Notes under the pieces: model-generated
The model's input: the letters and a program-made list of their open reading frames with translations, nothing else
What the model was told of the DNA's origin: nothing
Databases searched by the model: none
Shown here: positions 21,697 through 47,917 of the stretch, one piece after another
How the letters are laid out: each line of letters opens with the position of its first letter
Position numbering within the stretch: position 1 is the first letter of the stretch
Position numbers and translations under genes: made by a program
Source: a virus
Reading direction: 5' to 3' (one strand)
DNA: 64,000 nt
Virus record (IMG/VR): IMGVR_UViG_3300009161_000003
Location: 1-64,000 of that record

Positions 21697-21818
21697 ACGG
21701 TATTCCATGCAAACTCTGTAATGAACTCAATGCCACACAAGCAGTAATTGATGGCATCTATTGCCTTAATTGTTATATAGGGATTACGAATGGGTCTTTA
21801 AATTCCCAGGCAAACTAG
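21693..21818 (+). CDS. 41-residue zinc microprotein
   Basis: MNGIPCKLCNELNATQAVID with a second pair CLNC: CxxC...CxxC zinc knuckle. ATGA overlap with the previous gene. Its 3' end contains the promoter element of the halogenase gene. Confidence 0.55.
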   Translation: MNGIPCKLCNELNATQAVIDGIYCLNCYIGITNGSLNSQAN

Positions 21819-21835
21819 GGTATACTTATTTAAAT

Positions 21836-23428
21836 ATGAAAACAGATAAAATAGTTATTGTTGGTGGAGGCTCTGCAGGTTGGATGACTGCTACAACTTT
21901 AATTAAAGAATTTCCCACAAAAGAAATTGTACTAATCGAGTCTAAAAATGTTCCAACTGTTGGTGTTGGAGAGTCAACTATTGTCGGTATTAGAAAATGG
22001 GCGCAGTTTATAGGATTGAAAGAAGAGTCTTTCTTTAAAGAAACAGACGCTACTATTAAAATGAGCATTAAGTTTACAGATTTTTATAAAGAAGACTCAG
22101 GCAGTTTTCATTACCCTTTTGGTGATCCAGTAGTAGATGGCAATAGAAATCCTTTTGCTGATTGGCATTTAAAGAAGTATTTAAACCCAGAAACTCCAAT
22201 AGAAGATTTTGTAAATTGTTTGTTTCCATCTGCTGCCTTATTTAATAATGATAAATATTCTGAAAACTCATATAACGAATTTCATAATTTTAACCCTAAG
22301 AACGACATTGCCTACCATTTTGATTCCACTAAATTTGCTATATGGCTTAGAGATACATACTGTAAGCCTGCTGGCGTAACTCATATAATTTCAACTGTAG
22401 TATCTGTTAATAAAGACAAAGATGGAATTAAAAATTTAGTTTTAGAAGATGGAAGTTTAATTGAAGCAGACTTATTTATTGACTGTACTGGTTTTAAAAG
22501 TTTATTATTGTCAGAGTCATTGTTAGAGCCTTTTATATCATACTCTGATATGTTGCCAAACAATCGTGCATGGGCTACTAGGGTTCCATATATTAATGAT
22601 GACATAGAAATTCAAGGGTACACAAATTGCACTGCAATCTCTAACGGTTGGTGTTGGAATATCCCATTGTTCTCAAGACTAGGGGCTGGCTATGTATATT
22701 CAGATAAATATATAACTCCAGAAGATGCCAAAGAAGAATTTAAACAGTATTTGATGTCTAACAAAATGACTATACCTCGTTCTAAAGAAGATGTTGACAA
22801 ATTAGAATTTAAAGATATTAAAATGAGAGTTGGTATTCATGAAAGGACATTTGTTAAAAATGTAGTAGCAATAGGTTTATCTGCTGGTTTTATAGAACCT
22901 TTAGAGAGCAATGGCCTTTTTACTGTTCATGAATTTTTATTTAAACTTATAGATATTCTTCAAAGAGGTAGTATTTCTCAGTTTGATAGAGATATGTACA
23001 ATGTTTCAGTAAAAGATTTGTTTGATGGATTTACCAAATTTGTTGCTTTACATTACGCACTTTCTCACAGAGAGGATAGTGAGTATTGGAAAGAAATAAA
23101 CAATAAAATTTTTAAAGATAGAAATGGCGACCCATACAATCAATATCATGGTCGCACTGATTTATTTTATAATATAATGTGGAGATATATGGAAAACAAA
23201 GGGCATCCATTGGGCGCTGCAGGCATTACATATATTTCAACTGGAATGAATCTTAACATGATAAATGATTATAGGTTTATGGATATTAAAAATAGAATTA
23301 ATCCTACAATAGTAGAAGAAATAAACAAAATTATTTTTTTATGGGAAGAAAGAAAATTAAAATGGAATATGGCTTCAAACAACTCCAAAACAATGAAGCA
23401 ATACTTGTTAGAAAAGTATCATCAATAA
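21836..23428 (+). CDS. Flavin-dependent tryptophan halogenase family
   Basis: 530 residues from ATG 21836; a TATACT box lies 9 nt upstream. Residues 6-16 hold the FAD motif IVGGGSAGW. NGWCWNIPLF is the GWxWxIP motif diagnostic of flavin-dependent halogenases, Lys75 (in ATIKMSIKF) matches the lysine that forms the halogenating intermediate, and EPLESNGL is the conserved E-S pair. Predicted to use FADH2, O2 and halide to halogenate an electron-rich substrate; the family includes a cyanophage halogenase. No flavin reductase is visible nearby. Substrate unknown. TAATG coupling to the membrane protein downstream. Confidence 0.88.
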   Translation: MKTDKIVIVGGGSAGWMTATTLIKEFPTKEIVLIESKNVPTVGVGESTIVGIRKWAQFIGLKEESFFKETDATIKMSIKFTDFYKEDSGSFHYPFGDPVVDGNRNPFADWHLKKYLNPETPIEDFVNCLFPSAALFNNDKYSENSYNEFHNFNPKNDIAYHFDSTKFAIWLRDTYCKPAGVTHIISTVVSVNKDKDGIKNLVLEDGSLIEADLFIDCTGFKSLLLSESLLEPFISYSDMLPNNRAWATRVPYINDDIEIQGYTNCTAISNGWCWNIPLFSRLGAGYVYSDKYITPEDAKEEFKQYLMSNKMTIPRSKEDVDKLEFKDIKMRVGIHERTFVKNVVAIGLSAGFIEPLESNGLFTVHEFLFKLIDILQRGSISQFDRDMYNVSVKDLFDGFTKFVALHYALSHREDSEYWKEINNKIFKDRNGDPYNQYHGRTDLFYNIMWRYMENKGHPLGAAGITYISTGMNLNMINDYRFMDIKNRINPTIVEEINKIIFLWEERKLKWNMASNNSKTMKQYLLEKYHQ

Positions 23429-23755: not shown

Positions 23756-24370
23756 ATGGCATATGTAGTTAACGGAAAACCAGTTGGAAATGATCCACCT
23801 AGTGTAGAAAGAAATCATTCATATATGAAGTTTTTTCATGAGGTTGGTAATTCTGTTGAAAACATTAAGATTATTCCTAATTTTTTAACAAAAGAAGAAA
23901 TTGAATACCTTATGTCTGATATAAATACAAGGCGACATATTAGTTTTGTATCTCAAAAAGATAATGAAGGTAATGCCTTAACTTATATTTATCAGTATAA
24001 TGGACTAAAAGACATTCATAAAGTAATAGAAAGATGCAAAGATCAAATATGTAAATCTTATGGAATTGAAAAAGAAAAGATAAGAGCAAAAGAACAACAT
24101 CTTAATGTGGTTAAATGGGTAGAGGGCACTTATTTAGATTTACATGTTGATGACCTTGGATATGTTACAGACAATCATTTGCCAGTACTTATTTATTTAA
24201 ATGATGATTATGAGGGTGGAGAGATTAAGTTTGAGACTCATAATTTATCTTTAAAGCCAAATGTTGGAGATTTTATTGTTTTTCCAGGAAATTTACATTA
24301 CCCACATGAGGTAACAAAAGTTTTATCTGGAACTAGATACACATTGCCTATTTGGTTTACGATAGTTTAA
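23756..24370 (+). CDS. Fe(II)/2-oxoglutarate-dependent oxygenase
   Basis: 204 residues. H130-x-D132 (LHVDD) and H184 (YPHEV) are the iron ligands, R194 (GTRYTLPIWF) would hold 2-oxoglutarate, and LNDDYEGGEI plus FPGN complete the double-stranded beta-helix signature of prolyl-4-hydroxylase-like enzymes. Predicted hydroxylase; substrate unknown. TATAAT (23744-23749) lies 6 nt before ATG. The 25 bp upstream resemble those before the halogenase gene. Confidence 0.85.
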   Translation: MAYVVNGKPVGNDPPSVERNHSYMKFFHEVGNSVENIKIIPNFLTKEEIEYLMSDINTRRHISFVSQKDNEGNALTYIYQYNGLKDIHKVIERCKDQICKSYGIEKEKIRAKEQHLNVVKWVEGTYLDLHVDDLGYVTDNHLPVLIYLNDDYEGGEIKFETHNLSLKPNVGDFIVFPGNLHYPHEVTKVLSGTRYTLPIWFTIV

Positions 24371-24372
24371 AG

Positions 24373-24624
24373 ATGACAGATAGTAATAAAAAAAGAAAAC
24401 TTTTGGATGGATCTGAAGTAAATGATTACGATCATCCTATTGATCTTATATTACATACAAAGGCTCCTGCAAAATGGAAATTGATTGATCTTGAAACTGG
24501 TCAAGAATATTTAGGTTCAGATATATCTCATGAAACATTTGGAGAAGTTTTACGTAACAAAGTAGCAAAATCTAAAATAGGATCTTGGTTTAAAACAAAA
24601 GGAAGAGTAATAAAAAATGGATAA
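24373..24624 (+). CDS. Small conserved phage protein (KWKLID type)
   Basis: 83 residues. AKWKLIDLETGQEYLGS is a short beta motif found in small proteins of T4-like and cyanophage-type genomes. Basic C-terminus. Lies 2 nt after the oxygenase stop and overlaps the next gene by 8 nt. Unknown. Confidence 0.6.
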   Translation: MTDSNKKRKLLDGSEVNDYDHPIDLILHTKAPAKWKLIDLETGQEYLGSDISHETFGEVLRNKVAKSKIGSWFKTKGRVIKNG

Positions 24625-26044
24625 TACTAACAAACCTATAACATTTCATTGGATGTGGAGAAGGCACTGGCAGATAAATGACAGTATTGAAAACCTAGAC
24701 CTTAATGGAATTATGAAAATGGCAAAAGAGTTAGATGGTGCAGGGGTAAAATCTGTTTTACTTCCGTATGGTCCAGGAGGTATAGATTTTTCTTTAGTTA
24801 TTTCAGACGCATTAAAAACAACAGATCAATTAATTATGACAATTGCGTTGCCTGCATACGGAACAAGTCCAGATTACGCTGCCAAAATTTGTGAAACACT
24901 AAATCGTTTTGCTCCTGGAAGAATTGGAGTAAATCTTGTTGCTGGAAGATGGGGGGATGAAGGCAATGGCCCTTCAGAAAAATTGGTATTAGACCACTAT
25001 ATGCATGATTCGTCTCTCATTGACACTCTCGAAAAAAGAGTAGCAATATCTGCAATTTGGATGGATAAGGTTATAGATTTAATGAAAACTCATCAACATA
25101 AAACTCACATGGCAGTTGTTGGATCTTCAGATACAACAATTGGAATAGCAAACAAACATTGCGAATATATATATGTAGATGATAATTTAATATATAAAGA
25201 ACAATTTAAAAAAATTGATCTTAATCGTGTAAAACCAATACTTATTATTGATCCACTTATTATTAACAATACAGAAGAAGAACAAAATGTAAAATATGAT
25301 AAAAATGCGCCATTAAGAAAGCAGCATCATCATGTTAAAGGCCCATTGGTGGATGTTGTTAAACAAATAAAGCAATTATCAAAACAATTTGGTATATATG
25401 ATTTTATGATCCATACTGACCAAGCAGATATTAGCAAATTATTAGAATTAGTAAAAGATTTTAACAGCATTGACGTTCCTGAGCAAAAACAAATTGTAAT
25501 ATCTGAACTAACAAAGGAAAACTTTACAAATATTGGAAGTAATCCTAAAAACATAAAAATATTTAACAATTACCTTAGCAAAGATGAGTGTAAAAATATT
25601 ATAGGATTAATTAATAATACAGAGACAAGTAATAATCGTCCTCTTCAACCAGACAACAATGGCAATCCTACTCTGTCTTTATTGTATTACGACTCACTTA
25701 ATTATTCAGAAAAATATATTCCTCAAATTCAGGATATGGTAGAAAAAGAATATGGAGTAAAATTAAAACCAAGAAATTCTCGTTTTGCTCAATGGGTGCA
25801 CAGTCAGAGTCCTTTAATACCAATAGATGATTTGGGTCATAAAGATTCAAACCATTTAGCAGGTTGGGTATATTTGAATGACGATTATATAGGTGGAGAA
25901 CTATCTTTTATTCATCAAGGTGTGTCTTTTAAACCTAGGGCTGGTGATTTAGTTTTATTCCCTGGAAATATTCACTATTGGTACCATGTTGCTCCTGCAA
26001 ATGGATCAAGGTATATTATGCCACTTTGGTTTGATTTTGTTTAA
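24617..26044 (+). CDS. Luciferase-like monooxygenase fused to a 2OG-oxygenase domain
   Basis: 475 residues in two parts. Residues 1-280 have the TIM-barrel pattern of luciferase-like flavin monooxygenases (SsuD-like): IALPAYGTSPDYAAKICETL then APGRIGVNLVAG. Residues 310-475 are a 2OG-oxygenase fold closely like 23756-24370 (LNDDYIGGE, FPGN, H457, R465). The first iron ligand position, His in the neighbour (LHVDDLG), is Pro402 here (IPIDDLG), so the domain may be inactive, may use H408, or may be altered in chemistry. This fusion is unusual. Overlaps the previous gene by 8 nt. Confidence 0.78.
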   Translation: MDNTNKPITFHWMWRRHWQINDSIENLDLNGIMKMAKELDGAGVKSVLLPYGPGGIDFSLVISDALKTTDQLIMTIALPAYGTSPDYAAKICETLNRFAPGRIGVNLVAGRWGDEGNGPSEKLVLDHYMHDSSLIDTLEKRVAISAIWMDKVIDLMKTHQHKTHMAVVGSSDTTIGIANKHCEYIYVDDNLIYKEQFKKIDLNRVKPILIIDPLIINNTEEEQNVKYDKNAPLRKQHHHVKGPLVDVVKQIKQLSKQFGIYDFMIHTDQADISKLLELVKDFNSIDVPEQKQIVISELTKENFTNIGSNPKNIKIFNNYLSKDECKNIIGLINNTETSNNRPLQPDNNGNPTLSLLYYDSLNYSEKYIPQIQDMVEKEYGVKLKPRNSRFAQWVHSQSPLIPIDDLGHKDSNHLAGWVYLNDDYIGGELSFIHQGVSFKPRAGDLVLFPGNIHYWYHVAPANGSRYIMPLWFDFV

Positions 26045-26059
26045 TGGTAGAATAGTTAT

Positions 26060-27058
26060 ATGACTTATTTCACAAGGGATATTTTAGATTTTTACAGATT
26101 TGATAAAGAAAAAAACTACATATATTTAAAAAAATATTTTTCAAACAGTGATACTCTTGGACTGCACAATCCTAATTCCACAATTGTTTTTGATAGTGTT
26201 AATGTTTTTGATAAGGCTAACTGTAAAACTGTTGATGATGATAATACATACGAAATTAATAAAAATGGTTTTCGTGGAAAAGTTGATGAAAATTCAGATG
26301 TCATAGCATCTGGTTGTTCTATAACTTTTGGCATTGGAGTTCCAGAGGAGGCAAGATGGACAAATATTTTAAGCAACCAAATTAATAAAAACATCATTAA
26401 TTTAGGAGTTGAAGGAGCATCTGTAAAAAATGTTTGTACCAATATCATTCAATACTGTATGAATAATAAAATGCCAAAAGAAATTTTTTGTTTATTTCCA
26501 GATTTTTTTAGAAGTATGGTTGTAGTAGACGAAGAATTTTATAAATCAGGATTAAGCAAGAGGTATTGGGATGAATCAGATAAGTTAATACTAACCTTTT
26601 GCAATCCAAATGTTAGGAAACATAGTAAAAATCGTGTATTTATGGAAATAAAAGACAAAAATAATATAGAAGATTCTGTTTCTCCACACCAGTTAATACT
26701 AGATTCTGTAAATTTTATTTATATTTTAGAATCATTCTGTTTAACAAATGGCATAAAATTATATTGGACAACATGGGATGATGCTAGTTTTGCAATTTTG
26801 CAAGAAATGTCCAAAATTAAAGATTTTAAATTAAAAAATTTTTCACAGTCTATGCCAAGTCATTCTTGTGATGGTCTTTTACATGATCATTTTGGGTTTA
26901 AAAATCATCCACAATGGGAAAGAGGGTCTGATTATTCAATCATAAATAATAAAAAAACAAAAGTTTATGCTCATCCAGGCATTCATTATCATACTCATAT
27001 TGCAAGTTTGTTTTATAAAATGCGTGAGCAACAAAATCATGATATGATAGGTATATGA
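26060..27058 (+). CDS. SGNH-hydrolase-like protein
   Basis: 332 residues. IASGCSITFGIGVPEEARW (residues 82-100) fits block I of the SGNH/GDSL superfamily with the Ser in G-C-S; a C-terminal HPGIHYH could supply the Asp/His pair region. A paralogue lies at 34232-35020. SGNH proteins are esterases or acyltransferases, often acting on cell-wall or polysaccharide acyl groups. TAGAAT (26048-26053) lies 6 nt before ATG. Activity unproven. Confidence 0.6.
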   Translation: MTYFTRDILDFYRFDKEKNYIYLKKYFSNSDTLGLHNPNSTIVFDSVNVFDKANCKTVDDDNTYEINKNGFRGKVDENSDVIASGCSITFGIGVPEEARWTNILSNQINKNIINLGVEGASVKNVCTNIIQYCMNNKMPKEIFCLFPDFFRSMVVVDEEFYKSGLSKRYWDESDKLILTFCNPNVRKHSKNRVFMEIKDKNNIEDSVSPHQLILDSVNFIYILESFCLTNGIKLYWTTWDDASFAILQEMSKIKDFKLKNFSQSMPSHSCDGLLHDHFGFKNHPQWERGSDYSIINNKKTKVYAHPGIHYHTHIASLFYKMREQQNHDMIGI

Positions 27059-27729
27059 TGATTGATCACTCTAAAGATGAAATCTATTTAACAAATGTGG
27101 CTAAATTAGGAAGTTCTGCAAAAAACGTATATGTTATAGATAATTTTTTACCTAATGAAGAGTATCAAACATTATCTAATTTTGCAAATAATTCTGATCA
27201 AATCCCTTGGATTAAAGAACCTTGGACTACAGACAGAACTGCTCCAAATTCAATTCCGGAAGATTACGTTAAAATTATAAAAAAAATATATCCACTTGCT
27301 AGATTAAATTGTATGGATTATTATGATGTAAAAGTAAATGATTATCCTCCAGAAATTAGAGACGTTCTTTTAAGAAAGTGGAGTCCTGGAAGTAAAATGG
27401 AACCTCATATAGACACAGAGGCTCAAAAAAATCTACATATTGTAGGTATGTATTACCTTAATGATAATTATGATGGAGGAGAAATATTTTTTCCAGATTA
27501 TAATTTAAAAATTAAACCTAAATCAAATAGTTTACTTATGTTTCCTGGTAACGAAAACTATGTTCACGGAGTACATGAAGTTTCAAAAGGATTTAGGTAT
27601 ACTTACCAGGTAAGTTTTGTTTTTAAAGGCTCTACATTTGTAGGAGAAACAAAACATAATCTAGCGTATTATAAAAAGATCAATTATGATCCAAAGAATT
27701 TTATGAATTATGATCCAAAATCATTCTAA
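27055..27729 (+). CDS. Fe(II)/2OG oxygenase, tandem copy A
   Basis: 224 residues. PHIDTEAQ gives HxD, YVHGVHEV the distal His, and GFRYTYQVSF the 2OG-binding Arg; LNDNYDGGEIFF is the family core. TATGAT (27043-27048) lies 6 nt before ATG. First of three adjacent paralogues that overlap each other; the N-terminal DEIYLTNVAKLG is repeated in copy B. Confidence 0.82.
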   Translation: MMIDHSKDEIYLTNVAKLGSSAKNVYVIDNFLPNEEYQTLSNFANNSDQIPWIKEPWTTDRTAPNSIPEDYVKIIKKIYPLARLNCMDYYDVKVNDYPPEIRDVLLRKWSPGSKMEPHIDTEAQKNLHIVGMYYLNDNYDGGEIFFPDYNLKIKPKSNSLLMFPGNENYVHGVHEVSKGFRYTYQVSFVFKGSTFVGETKHNLAYYKKINYDPKNFMNYDPKSF

Positions 27730-28321
27730 AAAAGATGAAATCTATTTAGCAAATGTTGCAAAAATAGGAAACTCTATAAATAACATACAATATACTGAAA
27801 ATGTGTTATCTCAAGATGAGCATAAACAAATACTTGATTTTGTAAAAACCCGTGAATCTTGGACAATTCAACCTTGGGATAGTAAAGTTATCATATTTCA
27901 TGAGATGCCTAAAGAAATTCTTAATTCATTAAATAAAGTTTTTACGCTTGCTTATGAAAAATCTAAAAATTTTTATGATATAAAAATTAATTTTTTTGAA
28001 GATTTGTCATTAAATTTGCTTAAATTTGAAAAAGATTTTTCTTTAAAACAACATATAGATACTGAGTCAAGTGAATCAAATCATATTGCATCAGTATATT
28101 ATATTAATGATGATTACACAGGTGGAGAAATTAATTTTTCAAATTATAAATTAAAGATTAAACCTAAACCAAATAGTTTAATTGTTTTTCCTGGAAATGA
28201 AAACTATTTGCACGAAGTAGTTGAAATTACAAGTGGAGAACGATATAGTTCATCTTTGTGGTTTCAGTATACTGGGTCTACTTTTAATAAGAAAAGCGAG
28301 TGGTATGATGATCCAATCTAA
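27710..28321 (+). CDS. Fe(II)/2OG oxygenase, tandem copy B
   Basis: 203 residues. HIDTESSE (HxD), LHEVVEI (distal His) and GERYSSSLWF (Arg) are intact. Overlaps copy A by 20 nt and copy C by 17 nt. N-terminal DEIYLANVAKIGNSINNIQ is shared with A and C, so the three arose by tandem duplication. Confidence 0.82.
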   Translation: MIQNHSKKDEIYLANVAKIGNSINNIQYTENVLSQDEHKQILDFVKTRESWTIQPWDSKVIIFHEMPKEILNSLNKVFTLAYEKSKNFYDIKINFFEDLSLNLLKFEKDFSLKQHIDTESSESNHIASVYYINDDYTGGEINFSNYKLKIKPKPNSLIVFPGNENYLHEVVEITSGERYSSSLWFQYTGSTFNKKSEWYDDPI

Positions 28322-28865
28322 TTTAGGAAATTCTATAAATAATATACAAGTTACAGAAAATGTTTTGTCTAAAGAAGAACACAAACAACTGCTTGATTAT
28401 ACAATAAGTGTTGATTCTTGGCAAACTCAACCTTGGGGAGTTAAGTTTCTTTTATCAAAAGAAATGCCAGAAGAAATTGTTGATTTGTTAGAAAAAATTT
28501 TTAGAACCGCTTATGAAAAATGTACAAATTTTTATAATGTAAAACTTTATGTTTTTGAAAAAGGAACAGTTCCTTTAATTAAATTTGAAAAAGGATATAA
28601 GATGCATGAGCATGCGGATACTGCAGGAGATTTTGCAGTAATATATTATATCAATGATGACTATGAAGGAGGAGAAATTAATTTTATGGATCATAATTTG
28701 AAGATTAAACCAAAGGCTAACAGTTTTATCACATTTCCTAGTAATGCAGACTATTGGCATGAAGTACTTGAAAATACTGTAAAAGAAAGATATTCTGCTA
28801 CTCTCTGGTTTAAGTATGATGGCTCTGATATGTCAAGGCCAGCATTAGGTTTAAGTCGTAAGTGA
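28305..28865 (+). CDS. Fe(II)/2OG oxygenase, tandem copy C
   Basis: 186 residues from ATGATG. HEHADTAG gives HxD, YWHEVLE the distal His, KERYSATLWF the Arg. The start lies inside copy B; LGNSINNIQVTENVLSKEEH is nearly identical to B. The N-terminus is shorter than in A and B. Confidence 0.8.
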   Translation: MMIQSNLGNSINNIQVTENVLSKEEHKQLLDYTISVDSWQTQPWGVKFLLSKEMPEEIVDLLEKIFRTAYEKCTNFYNVKLYVFEKGTVPLIKFEKGYKMHEHADTAGDFAVIYYINDDYEGGEINFMDHNLKIKPKANSFITFPSNADYWHEVLENTVKERYSATLWFKYDGSDMSRPALGLSRK

Positions 28866-32805: not shown

Positions 32806-34242
32806 ATGATTATTCTTGGAATTAATGGAACCTCTCATGACGCATCTATATCTTTAATAGAGGATGGAAACATACTTTTTGCTGGGCATTCTGAAAGATA
32901 TAGTAAGGTAAAAAATGATTGGTACAACTGCCAAGAATTGTTTGACGATGCATTTCAATATGGATATCCAGATCAAATAGCGTACTATGAAAAACCTTGG
33001 TTAAAAAAATCAAGACTATTATTTGGCGGTTCTTCAGACTGGAAACCAAAATTTAAAACTAAATTTGATACATCAAAAATAAAAATAACAAATTTTAATC
33101 ACCACTACTCACATGCAGCAGCAGGATATTTTACAAGTGAATTTGATGATGCAGTTATTGTGGTTTTAGATTCAGTAGGAGAATGGACAACCTCGTCAAT
33201 TTATACTGGAGAAAATAATAAAATTAATTTATTAGAAAAAACAGACTATCCATTTAGTTTTGGATTATTTTATTCTGCCTTTACTCAATTGGTTGGCTTA
33301 AAACCAAACGAAGAAGAGTATATTATGATGGGTATGGCAGGGTATGGAGATTGGAAAAAATACTATAAAGAAGTTATAGAATATTTTCCAGATATAAATA
33401 CACAAAAATATAATTTTCATAAAGGTATACATGATTGGCCTTATAATATTTTTGCACAAGACAAGTTTGACATAGCAGCAGCAGTTCAAAAAGTCTATGA
33501 AATTAGACTGCTTGATTTTATGTTAAAGGCTAAACGTATTTCAGGAAAAAACAACTTAGTATTTATGGGTGGATGTGCTTTGAATTGTTCTGCTAATACA
33601 CAGTTGTGGGAAGTGTTTGATAATGTTTGGATTATGCCTAATCCAGGAGATGCTGGAAGTTCTCTTGGTGCAGCAGCAGCATTATATGGAAAACATATTA
33701 ATTGGAATGGTCCGTACTTAGGACATGATTTATGTGGAACATATCCCGTTGATCAAATTTTAAAACAATTAAAAGAAAATAAAATTGCAGCCGTTGCTTC
33801 AGGAAGAGCCGAGTTCGGTCCAAGAGCACTTGGAAATAGAAGTATTTTGGCAGACCCAAGAGACCCAGAGATTAAAAACAAGGTAAATAAAATAAAACAA
33901 CGAGAAGAATTTAGACCATTTGCTCCAGTAGTATTAGAACACTTGGCAGATAAATGGTTTGAAATGCCAACGACATCTATTCCATATATGCAGTATGCGG
34001 TTAAATGTAAAAGACCAAAGGATATTCCTTCTGTAGTTCATGTTGACGGAACTTCTAGAGTTCAAACAGTAAATGAAAAACAGCATCCAGGATTATACAG
34101 AGTATTAAATAAATTTTATTTAGAAACTGGAGTACCAATTCTTCTTAATACAAGTCTAAACATAAAAGGGCAACCACTTTTAAATGATGAAACAGATATA
34201 GTTAATTGGGAAAAAAAATATGATAGTAGTATTATAAGATAG
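32806..34242 (+). CDS. Carbamoyltransferase (NodU/CmcH family)
   Basis: 478 residues. The N-terminal domain starts ILGINGTSHDASISLIEDG and has the metal/adenylate motif NHHYSHAAAGY (H99, H100, H103); the C-terminal YrdC-like part has GRAEFGPRALGNRSILADPR. The family transfers a carbamoyl group from carbamoyl phosphate to a hydroxyl or amine on sugars and antibiotics; cyanophages carry homologues. Next to SGNH and oxygenase genes it could modify a glycan or small molecule. The C-terminus (DSSIIR) appears slightly short and ends over the convergent gene. Confidence 0.9.
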   Translation: MIILGINGTSHDASISLIEDGNILFAGHSERYSKVKNDWYNCQELFDDAFQYGYPDQIAYYEKPWLKKSRLLFGGSSDWKPKFKTKFDTSKIKITNFNHHYSHAAAGYFTSEFDDAVIVVLDSVGEWTTSSIYTGENNKINLLEKTDYPFSFGLFYSAFTQLVGLKPNEEEYIMMGMAGYGDWKKYYKEVIEYFPDINTQKYNFHKGIHDWPYNIFAQDKFDIAAAVQKVYEIRLLDFMLKAKRISGKNNLVFMGGCALNCSANTQLWEVFDNVWIMPNPGDAGSSLGAAAALYGKHINWNGPYLGHDLCGTYPVDQILKQLKENKIAAVASGRAEFGPRALGNRSILADPRDPEIKNKVNKIKQREEFRPFAPVVLEHLADKWFEMPTTSIPYMQYAVKCKRPKDIPSVVHVDGTSRVQTVNEKQHPGLYRVLNKFYLETGVPILLNTSLNIKGQPLLNDETDIVNWEKKYDSSIIR

Positions 34243-46707: not shown

Positions 46708-47268
46708 TTATTGCAGGTCTGGATCTACATGTTGATATTGCGTGGTATGCATTAACAATAAAGTGTATCTTTTTCCATCTTCAATTGGAGTAATTCCATG
46801 CTTCCATTTTTCTCCGTCACTAATAAAAAATACAGCACTATATTTTTTTGGTTTATATTCAAAGTCTAAAACAGGAAAAAAAATCTTTCCTCCTAAAAAT
46901 TCATCATTTAAATAAATTACAGAACTATATTCAATAAATTTTTCTGGATCCTGATCATCAATATGAACCCCTCCAGAACTTCCTACGTTCCATACTGATC
47001 CAAAGGCTTTGAAACATTTAATTTGATTTTTTTCGTTTGGATTTAATTCTTGATGAATTAGGTTTGCTTTTAAAGCATATTTTTTTAAAAGACTAATGGT
47101 TGTTTTGTTATATGGAAATGCTGTTCCTCCGTATCTACTTTTATAATATTCTGGATAAGGATTTATTTCTGAAGGTTTATTGATTTCAGATATCAAAACA
47201 TTAGCATCTTCTTCACTAATAAAGTCATTAATTATAATTGGTTTATCTTTTATAGGCAAGTTAGTCAT
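46708..47268 (-). CDS. Fe(II)/2OG oxygenase
   Basis: 186 residues. GVHIDDQDPE (HxD), WKHGITP (distal His) and GKRYTLLLM (Arg) are intact; VIYLNDEFLGGKIFFP is the core. Second cluster of oxygenases (46.7-52.4 kb). Substrate unknown. Confidence 0.82.
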   Translation of the reverse strand: MTNLPIKDKPIIINDFISEEDANVLISEINKPSEINPYPEYYKSRYGGTAFPYNKTTISLLKKYALKANLIHQELNPNEKNQIKCFKAFGSVWNVGSSGGVHIDDQDPEKFIEYSSVIYLNDEFLGGKIFFPVLDFEYKPKKYSAVFFISDGEKWKHGITPIEDGKRYTLLLMHTTQYQHVDPDLQ

Positions 47269-47272
47269 AATC

Positions 47273-47917
47273 TTATTCCTCCCCTGTGGAAAAATATCTT
47301 TTTTCTTTAGGTACGTTATGATACCAATTTGGCAAAGAATATTTTATTCCATCTGTTATTTCTTCAACTTCATGAACATATAAAAAATTTGATGGGAAAA
47401 ACAATATACTTCCAGCCTCTGGTTTAAATGATAAATTTGAATTTTTAAAAACCAAATTACCACCTTTATAATCATCATTTAAATACATCAAAACAGAAAG
47501 AGTCCTAGTGCTTACACCGTGATCTTGATGTGCTGGCAGATATCCAGATTTTTCATACTTAAGTAAATGCATTGCATCATCTCTAGATTTAACATTTAAA
47601 AATGGATAGAGACCCTTATACTTAGAAAGATATTCGTCTAATGGAGAAAATAATTTTTTTGAAATGCTGTAAATTTCATCATAAAAAAAATCATCTTTAT
47701 TTATTTGTCCCTGTGGTATAAAAAATTTTTGCCAACAAAAAAATTGTTCTTTGTCATTCCAAGGAGACCAAGGCCTAGCCATAGTTTTAATAATTTTATT
47801 TTTATTATTTAATATTTTTTTATCTAAATCTTCAACCTCTTTAATTATTTTTTCTGAATCAATAATTGCATTTTTATAATAAACTAATCCTAAATCTAAA
47901 ATTTCAACACTATTCAT
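47273..47917 (-). CDS. Fe(II)/2OG oxygenase
   Basis: 214 residues. PAHQDHGVST gives HxD, YVHEVEEIT the distal His; the usual Arg is Lys (GIKYSLPNWY). VLMYLNDDYKGGNLVF is the core. Longer N-terminal helical part than its relatives. ATG overlaps the upstream stop. Confidence 0.8.
   Translation of the reverse strand: MNSVEILDLGLVYYKNAIIDSEKIIKEVEDLDKKILNNKNKIIKTMARPWSPWNDKEQFFCWQKFFIPQGQINKDDFFYDEIYSISKKLFSPLDEYLSKYKGLYPFLNVKSRDDAMHLLKYEKSGYLPAHQDHGVSTRTLSVLMYLNDDYKGGNLVFKNSNLSFKPEAGSILFFPSNFLYVHEVEEITDGIKYSLPNWYHNVPKEKRYFSTGEE

Follow-up and report, generated by a model that had tools for sequence, protein, structure and literature searches.

A reading frame within the 64,000-nucleotide stretch of viral DNA that we analysed (hereafter the window) raises the question of what use a virus makes of a 2OG-oxygenase fold that has lost its iron site. 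A first-pass annotation had described the frame as a luciferase-like monooxygenase (LLM) domain fused to a 2OG domain with Pro402 in the place of the first iron His, and had offered two readings of the loss, a different metal site or a binding-only role. We ask here whether the fusion is real, how widely the loss is shared, and what the altered domain may do in its place.

The fused reading frame and its virus

The frame runs uninterrupted through all of its 475 residues (Table 1). A scan of viral contigs returned 134 stretches with relatives of the fusion, the best 80 of which were retained; with the window these make 81 sequences, 58 of them distinct, at 71–100% identity to the window's. Two further viral-contig scans largely repeated these contigs and added six more, near locus L086. 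Fusion is the rule within this protein family. That both folds are matched and that one ORF encodes them bears out the architecture first proposed, and the search for the same fusion in other phages, suggested at that time, was answered by the 80 stretches aligned. The counter-hypothesis of the first-pass annotation, that the halves are normally separate and were joined by a sequence error, fails for this family, as a single frame in 81/81 aligned copies (best 80 of 134, plus the window) rules out a local error or frameshift.

Table 1. Features of the fused reading frame and of the two genes preceding it, in window positions.
Feature	Position	Strand	Basis
First cassette gene: intact 2OG oxygenase (His130, Asp132, His184, Arg194)	23756..24370	+	
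Second cassette gene: small protein, 82 aa without start Met; 8-base overlap with fusion start	24373..24624	+	
Fused ORF (LLM domain + iron-less 2OG fold), 475 aa	24617..26044	+	81 aligned full-length copies
Luciferase-like (SsuD/MsuD/CmoJ-type) barrel, residues 5-287	24629..25477	+	homology and fold matches
Gly169-Ser170-Ser171, opposite the GGSS stretch of SsuD	25121..25129	+	invariant in 37-row and 23-row alignments
Iron-less 2OG-oxygenase fold (pseudo-2OG), residues 303-475	25523..26041	+	PF13640 and profile alignment
Pro402, replaces first iron His	25820..25822	+	profile alignment, column counts
Asp404, opposite iron Asp; Asn in 6/58 distinct copies	25826..25828	+	profile alignment
Tyr456, replaces distal iron His	25982..25984	+	profile and HMM alignments, column counts
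Arg465, opposite 2OG-binding Arg; 77/77	26009..26011	+	profile alignment, column counts

Among 50,697 isolated-phage records, none held a sequence covering 80% of the fusion and none covered 80% of the LLM domain; a genome-contig scan with the fusion for close bacterial homologues gave 0 relatives. The LLM profile was also run against genomes around Planktophila (0/3 and 0/151), a search that had no positive control and whose empty answer is uninformative. Streptomyces phage terminases reach 54% identity to that of the window, and a terminase 79–81% identical to the window's was found in four of seven long fusion-bearing records and in none of the other three, which are possibly fragments. The nearest bacterial PstS matches include freshwater Actinomycetota (35–36%). 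From the terminase likeness and the PstS matches, the host is probably a freshwater actinobacterium. Stand-alone, far diverged LLM genes occur in other and in related phages: of 22 terminase-related records, two carry one, at L298:1429-2319 (296 aa) and L299:1237-2082 (281 aa), with none found in the other 20, many of them fragments.

The N-terminal domain is matched by NCBIfam SsuD-type models at E-values of 5e-9 and 2e-8, with scores far under the cut-off (35 vs 510 bits; 33.5 vs 518 bits for the TIGR03565 SsuD equivalog), and by Pfam Bac_luciferase (PF00296) at 19.7 and 21.0 bits, below its curated cut-off of 27.9; phmmer against alkanesulfonate monooxygenases gave E 2.5e-6 over residues 5–287. 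With an AlphaFold model of the fusion (37 sequences, mean pLDDT 79.5), Foldseek placed MsuD best (E 4.9e-15), and among the PDB matches listed 50 LLM/F420-type entries, CmoJ, SfnG, SsuD and MsuD included, align over residues 4–291 at Z 20–23. The PDB matches listed for the whole model concern the LLM domain only, and the BFVD list is rich in phage 2OG proteins. As modelled, the N-terminal half is an LLM TIM-barrel fold, and a 'monooxygenase' activity of the fusion is predicted solely from that fold.

SsuD has Cys54, Arg226, His228 and Arg297 as catalytic residues. The profile alignment to the SsuD family stops at residue 185; before that point the Gly169-Ser170-Ser171 stretch lies opposite the SsuD GGSS stretch, which has a flavin-phosphate role. 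We only infer flavin chemistry here because the LLM domain scores under the Pfam cut-off, its C-terminal half cannot be aligned with SsuD, and no flavin reductase (PF03358) was found in the window's own 113-kb, possibly incomplete record. The substrate class is likewise putative.

Loss of the iron site across the family

PF13640 reaches 27.6 bits on the window's C-terminal domain, against a cut-off of 27, and is matched by 27/27 fused-family members (E 0.01); a profile alignment between 27 fused-domain sequences and 41 of the intact neighbour family gives an E-value of 1.7e-36. On these sequence grounds the C-terminal domain is a 2OG-oxygenase fold. The profile alignment pairs Pro402 with His130, Asp404 with Asp132, Tyr456 with His184, His457 with Glu185 and Arg465 with Arg194, and in an HMM alignment to the solved prolyl 4-hydroxylase 6iuq the enzyme's His falls in the same column as Tyr456.

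These columns were read in 177 2OG domains (77 fused, 100 unfused) from 76 non-redundant loci plus the window. The unfused domains of the same loci carry the tetrad HDHR in 99/100 cases, the one other (window position 47273) being partial and partly aligned, with H-HK. The 77 fused copies carry PDYR (50), SDYR (10), RDYR (6), PNYR (5), ADYR (4) or PNHR (2). The first iron His is missing from every one of them, with Pro, Ser, Ala or Arg instead, Tyr fills the distal-His column in 75/77, and the Asp404 column holds Asn in seven. The full iron triad is found in 0/77, and never does a fused copy have more than one of the three ligands.

The first-pass annotation was right about Pro402 and understated the case, the first His being gone throughout the fused family. 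Its view that Asp and Arg465 remain stands for Arg465 (77/77) and mostly for Asp404, given the seven copies with Asn. It misplaced the distal ligand: the 'distal His457' that it saw retained lies one residue off the ligand column, which is Tyr456, and position 457 varies: the 58 distinct copies have His (38), Asn (10), Asp (6) or Ser (4) there, and Tyr (56) or His (2) at 456. We reject His408, its suggested stand-in, as a replacement iron ligand because the position is variable across the 58 distinct copies (His 41, Ser 11, Arg 6).

The different metal site is accordingly unsupported in its first form, since His408 varies, Asp404 can be Asn and Tyr456 replaces the distal His. An active enzyme could still be built around a non-canonical site of Asp404, Tyr456 and an invariant His395 or His413, given that Asp404 is present in 52 and both His in all 58 of the distinct copies. 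We consider such an enzyme quite unlikely, as position 404 is Asn in 6/58, His408 is variable, and the His413 column is shared with the intact family, which keeps the equivalent His141 beside its own iron triad. Arg465, Tyr419 and Asp404 could also serve another kind of catalysis.

A metal-free use of the pocket would be as a dicarboxylate sensor, in which Arg465, Tyr419 and Trp471 let 2OG or a similar acid gate the flavin domain. Arg465 corresponds to the Arg with which 2OG enzymes hold the C5 carboxylate of 2OG, and all three are taken as pocket residues by reference to other 2OG enzymes. They are fixed in both the fused and the intact families, which is the attraction of this reading; it appears unlikely nevertheless, as the three may be structural and the conserved core has changed around them (Thr196 to Ile467, His162 to Gln434).

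The three-gene cassette and selection on the fused domain

The order 2OG gene, small gene, fusion is found in 75/76 loci, and in the 76th the small gene alone lies upstream. The small protein is 68–94% identical to the window's in 37 representatives, and its AlphaFold model has a pLDDT of 60; its N-terminal half is similar to the C-terminal end of a Mosigvirus (T4-like) protein annotated for UDP-arabinose synthesis (46% over about 50 residues).

The surroundings are more varied. Among the 72 loci that extend more than 700 bases beyond the fusion, 60 have a gene for a small sulfotransferase-like protein directly after it (e.g. L017:2110-2694; two of three members checked by Pfam were above the cut-off); in the window the gene after the fusion is GDSL-like (below Pfam's cut-off), not sulfotransferase-like. 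An additional 2OG gene directly follows the fusion at L020:2487-3077 and L047:2484-3074. Upstream of the cassette in the window lies a tryptophan-halogenase gene (21770-23428; PF04820, E 6.5e-102). The cassette does not regularly include a tryptophan halogenase, because one stands beside it in only 3/76 loci (L008, L023, L099), some loci ending too early to show it. The window also holds five more 2OG genes, within 27055-28865 (+) and 46708-47917 (-), four of them HDHR and the partly aligned one at 47273, and a carbamoyltransferase gene at 32806-34242 (PF02543/PF16861).

In a pairwise Nei–Gojobori comparison of 75 sequences, median dN/dS was lowest for the small protein (0.051), the best conserved of the cassette products, followed by the LLM domain (0.097), the pseudo-2OG domain (0.151) and the intact 2OG (0.236); with a median pS of 0.55–0.62, synonymous sites are fairly saturated, so these estimates are rough. 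When columns of the pseudo-2OG and intact families were compared at a conservation level of at least 95%, 30 positions were conserved and identical in both, and 11 were conserved in both with different residues, including His184/Tyr456, Thr196/Ile467, Pro143/Ala415 and His162/Gln434. Another 37 positions were fixed in the pseudo-domain only and 17 in the intact family only, including His130, Asp132, Gly124, Glu156 and Glu185. This column pattern is the one expected after a change of function.

The loss of the iron ligands might suggest that the domain is a dead tail, the decaying remnant of a fused oxygenase. We regard this as highly improbable: the pseudo-2OG domain is not decaying, because its dN/dS is below that of the intact neighbour (0.15 vs 0.24) and it has newly fixed positions of its own, and none of the 81 aligned fusions (best 80 of 134, plus the window) is shortened.

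The tight linkage of the cassette genes (75/76 loci) invites a specific form of the binding-module reading that we favour below, namely that the pseudo-domain is a prozyme-type partner, forming a heterodimer with the intact 2OG enzyme, whose gene lies two before the fusion, and either activating that enzyme or docking it onto the flavin barrel. Of the 2OG genes found in the record, the one for that enzyme is nearest to the pseudo-domain (37% identity, vs 25–30% for the five others). In the tree, however, fused domains and cassette 2OGs fall into separate clades (support 99 and 88) that are not resolved as sisters, so that a duplication origin of the pair is no more than possible. A partnership of this type is conceivable, on the less likely side.

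A probable binding module and its relation to known systems

Overall, we think it probable that the pseudo-2OG domain is an iron-free binding module for a flavin enzyme within a three-gene tailoring unit. In this scheme, the iron site of a 2OG-oxygenase fold would have disappeared, probably in a single event, in the ancestor of a freshwater actinophage-like virus group, and the iron-less fold would have been retained and remodelled for binding. The module would most likely bind a small ligand, a substrate or a cassette partner (the intact 2OG enzyme or the 82-aa protein) and bring it to the flavin-binding LLM barrel, with the three cassette genes acting as one oxidative tailoring module. The binding-only role offered at the outset fits the family-wide loss of the iron site, the purifying selection and the newly fixed residue set. 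A more elaborate version, which we hold to be rather unlikely, would see in it a new functional domain with a pocket of its own, rebuilt from newly fixed residues (Ser338-Asn339-Arg341, Leu355, Tyr357-Leu361, Arg386/Arg389, His395, Trp417 and Trp455-Tyr456). That domain would couple the flavin enzyme physically to the iron oxygenase, giving a mixed flavin/iron tailoring complex in which the 82-aa protein serves as carrier or substrate.

Pseudoenzymes are well known among kinases and proteases. The fusion sets a familiar fold, its site lost and rebuilt, in a new architecture, and a conserved iron-less 2OG fold on a flavin barrel, in dozens of viruses, would be an unusual non-oxygenation use of an oxygenase fold. 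Many lake phages carry the fusion, and the strong preservation of its iron-less domain suggests that an enzyme fold was adapted to binding or to serving a partner. The fixed three-gene cassette is also a ready experimental system, and a common one, with 134 fusion-relative stretches in one viral-contig scan. Among the papers listed by a search of the published literature, none described an LLM/pseudo-2OG fusion. Published work does cover 2OG oxygenases of phages, tryptophan halogenases and tauD, an organosulfur gene (passages in PMC3037559, PMC10452541 and PMC9469726, the last on viral tauD only); a term search of PMC6802176 returned neither luciferase, halogenase nor oxygenase.

The PHD/P4H/YbiX-PiuC-type Fe(II)/2OG oxygenases (PF13640) have the YLN..Y.GG, PGN.HY and RY..P.WF motifs and the 2OG Arg in common with the fused domain, which differs from them in that both iron His are gone in 75/77 copies and the Asp is sometimes Asn. 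In the Fe/2OG halogenases of SyrB2 and WelO5 type the HxD motif is altered too, and the WelO5 model was weakly matched by 5/27 fused-family members. The halogenases have the Asp replaced by Gly or Ala and keep both His, whereas the fused domain mostly keeps Asp404 (52/58) and has the first His in 0/58 and the distal His in 2/58 copies. On the flavin side, SsuD/MsuD and CmoJ/SfnG, two-component FMN enzymes of the LLM superfamily, show the same TIM-barrel (Z 21–23, about 250 aligned residues), and SsuD aligns with the fusion's Asn106, Gly-Arg 101-102 and GSS stretch; the fusion's barrel is shorter than theirs (about 285 aa), 16–21% identical and joined to another domain. BFVD entries A0A6J7WN64 and A0A6J7WQ01, with loci L298 and L299, are likewise phage LLM barrels, but these stand alone at 249–296 aa, without a 2OG domain, and the BFVD pair is about 18% identical to the fusion's barrel.
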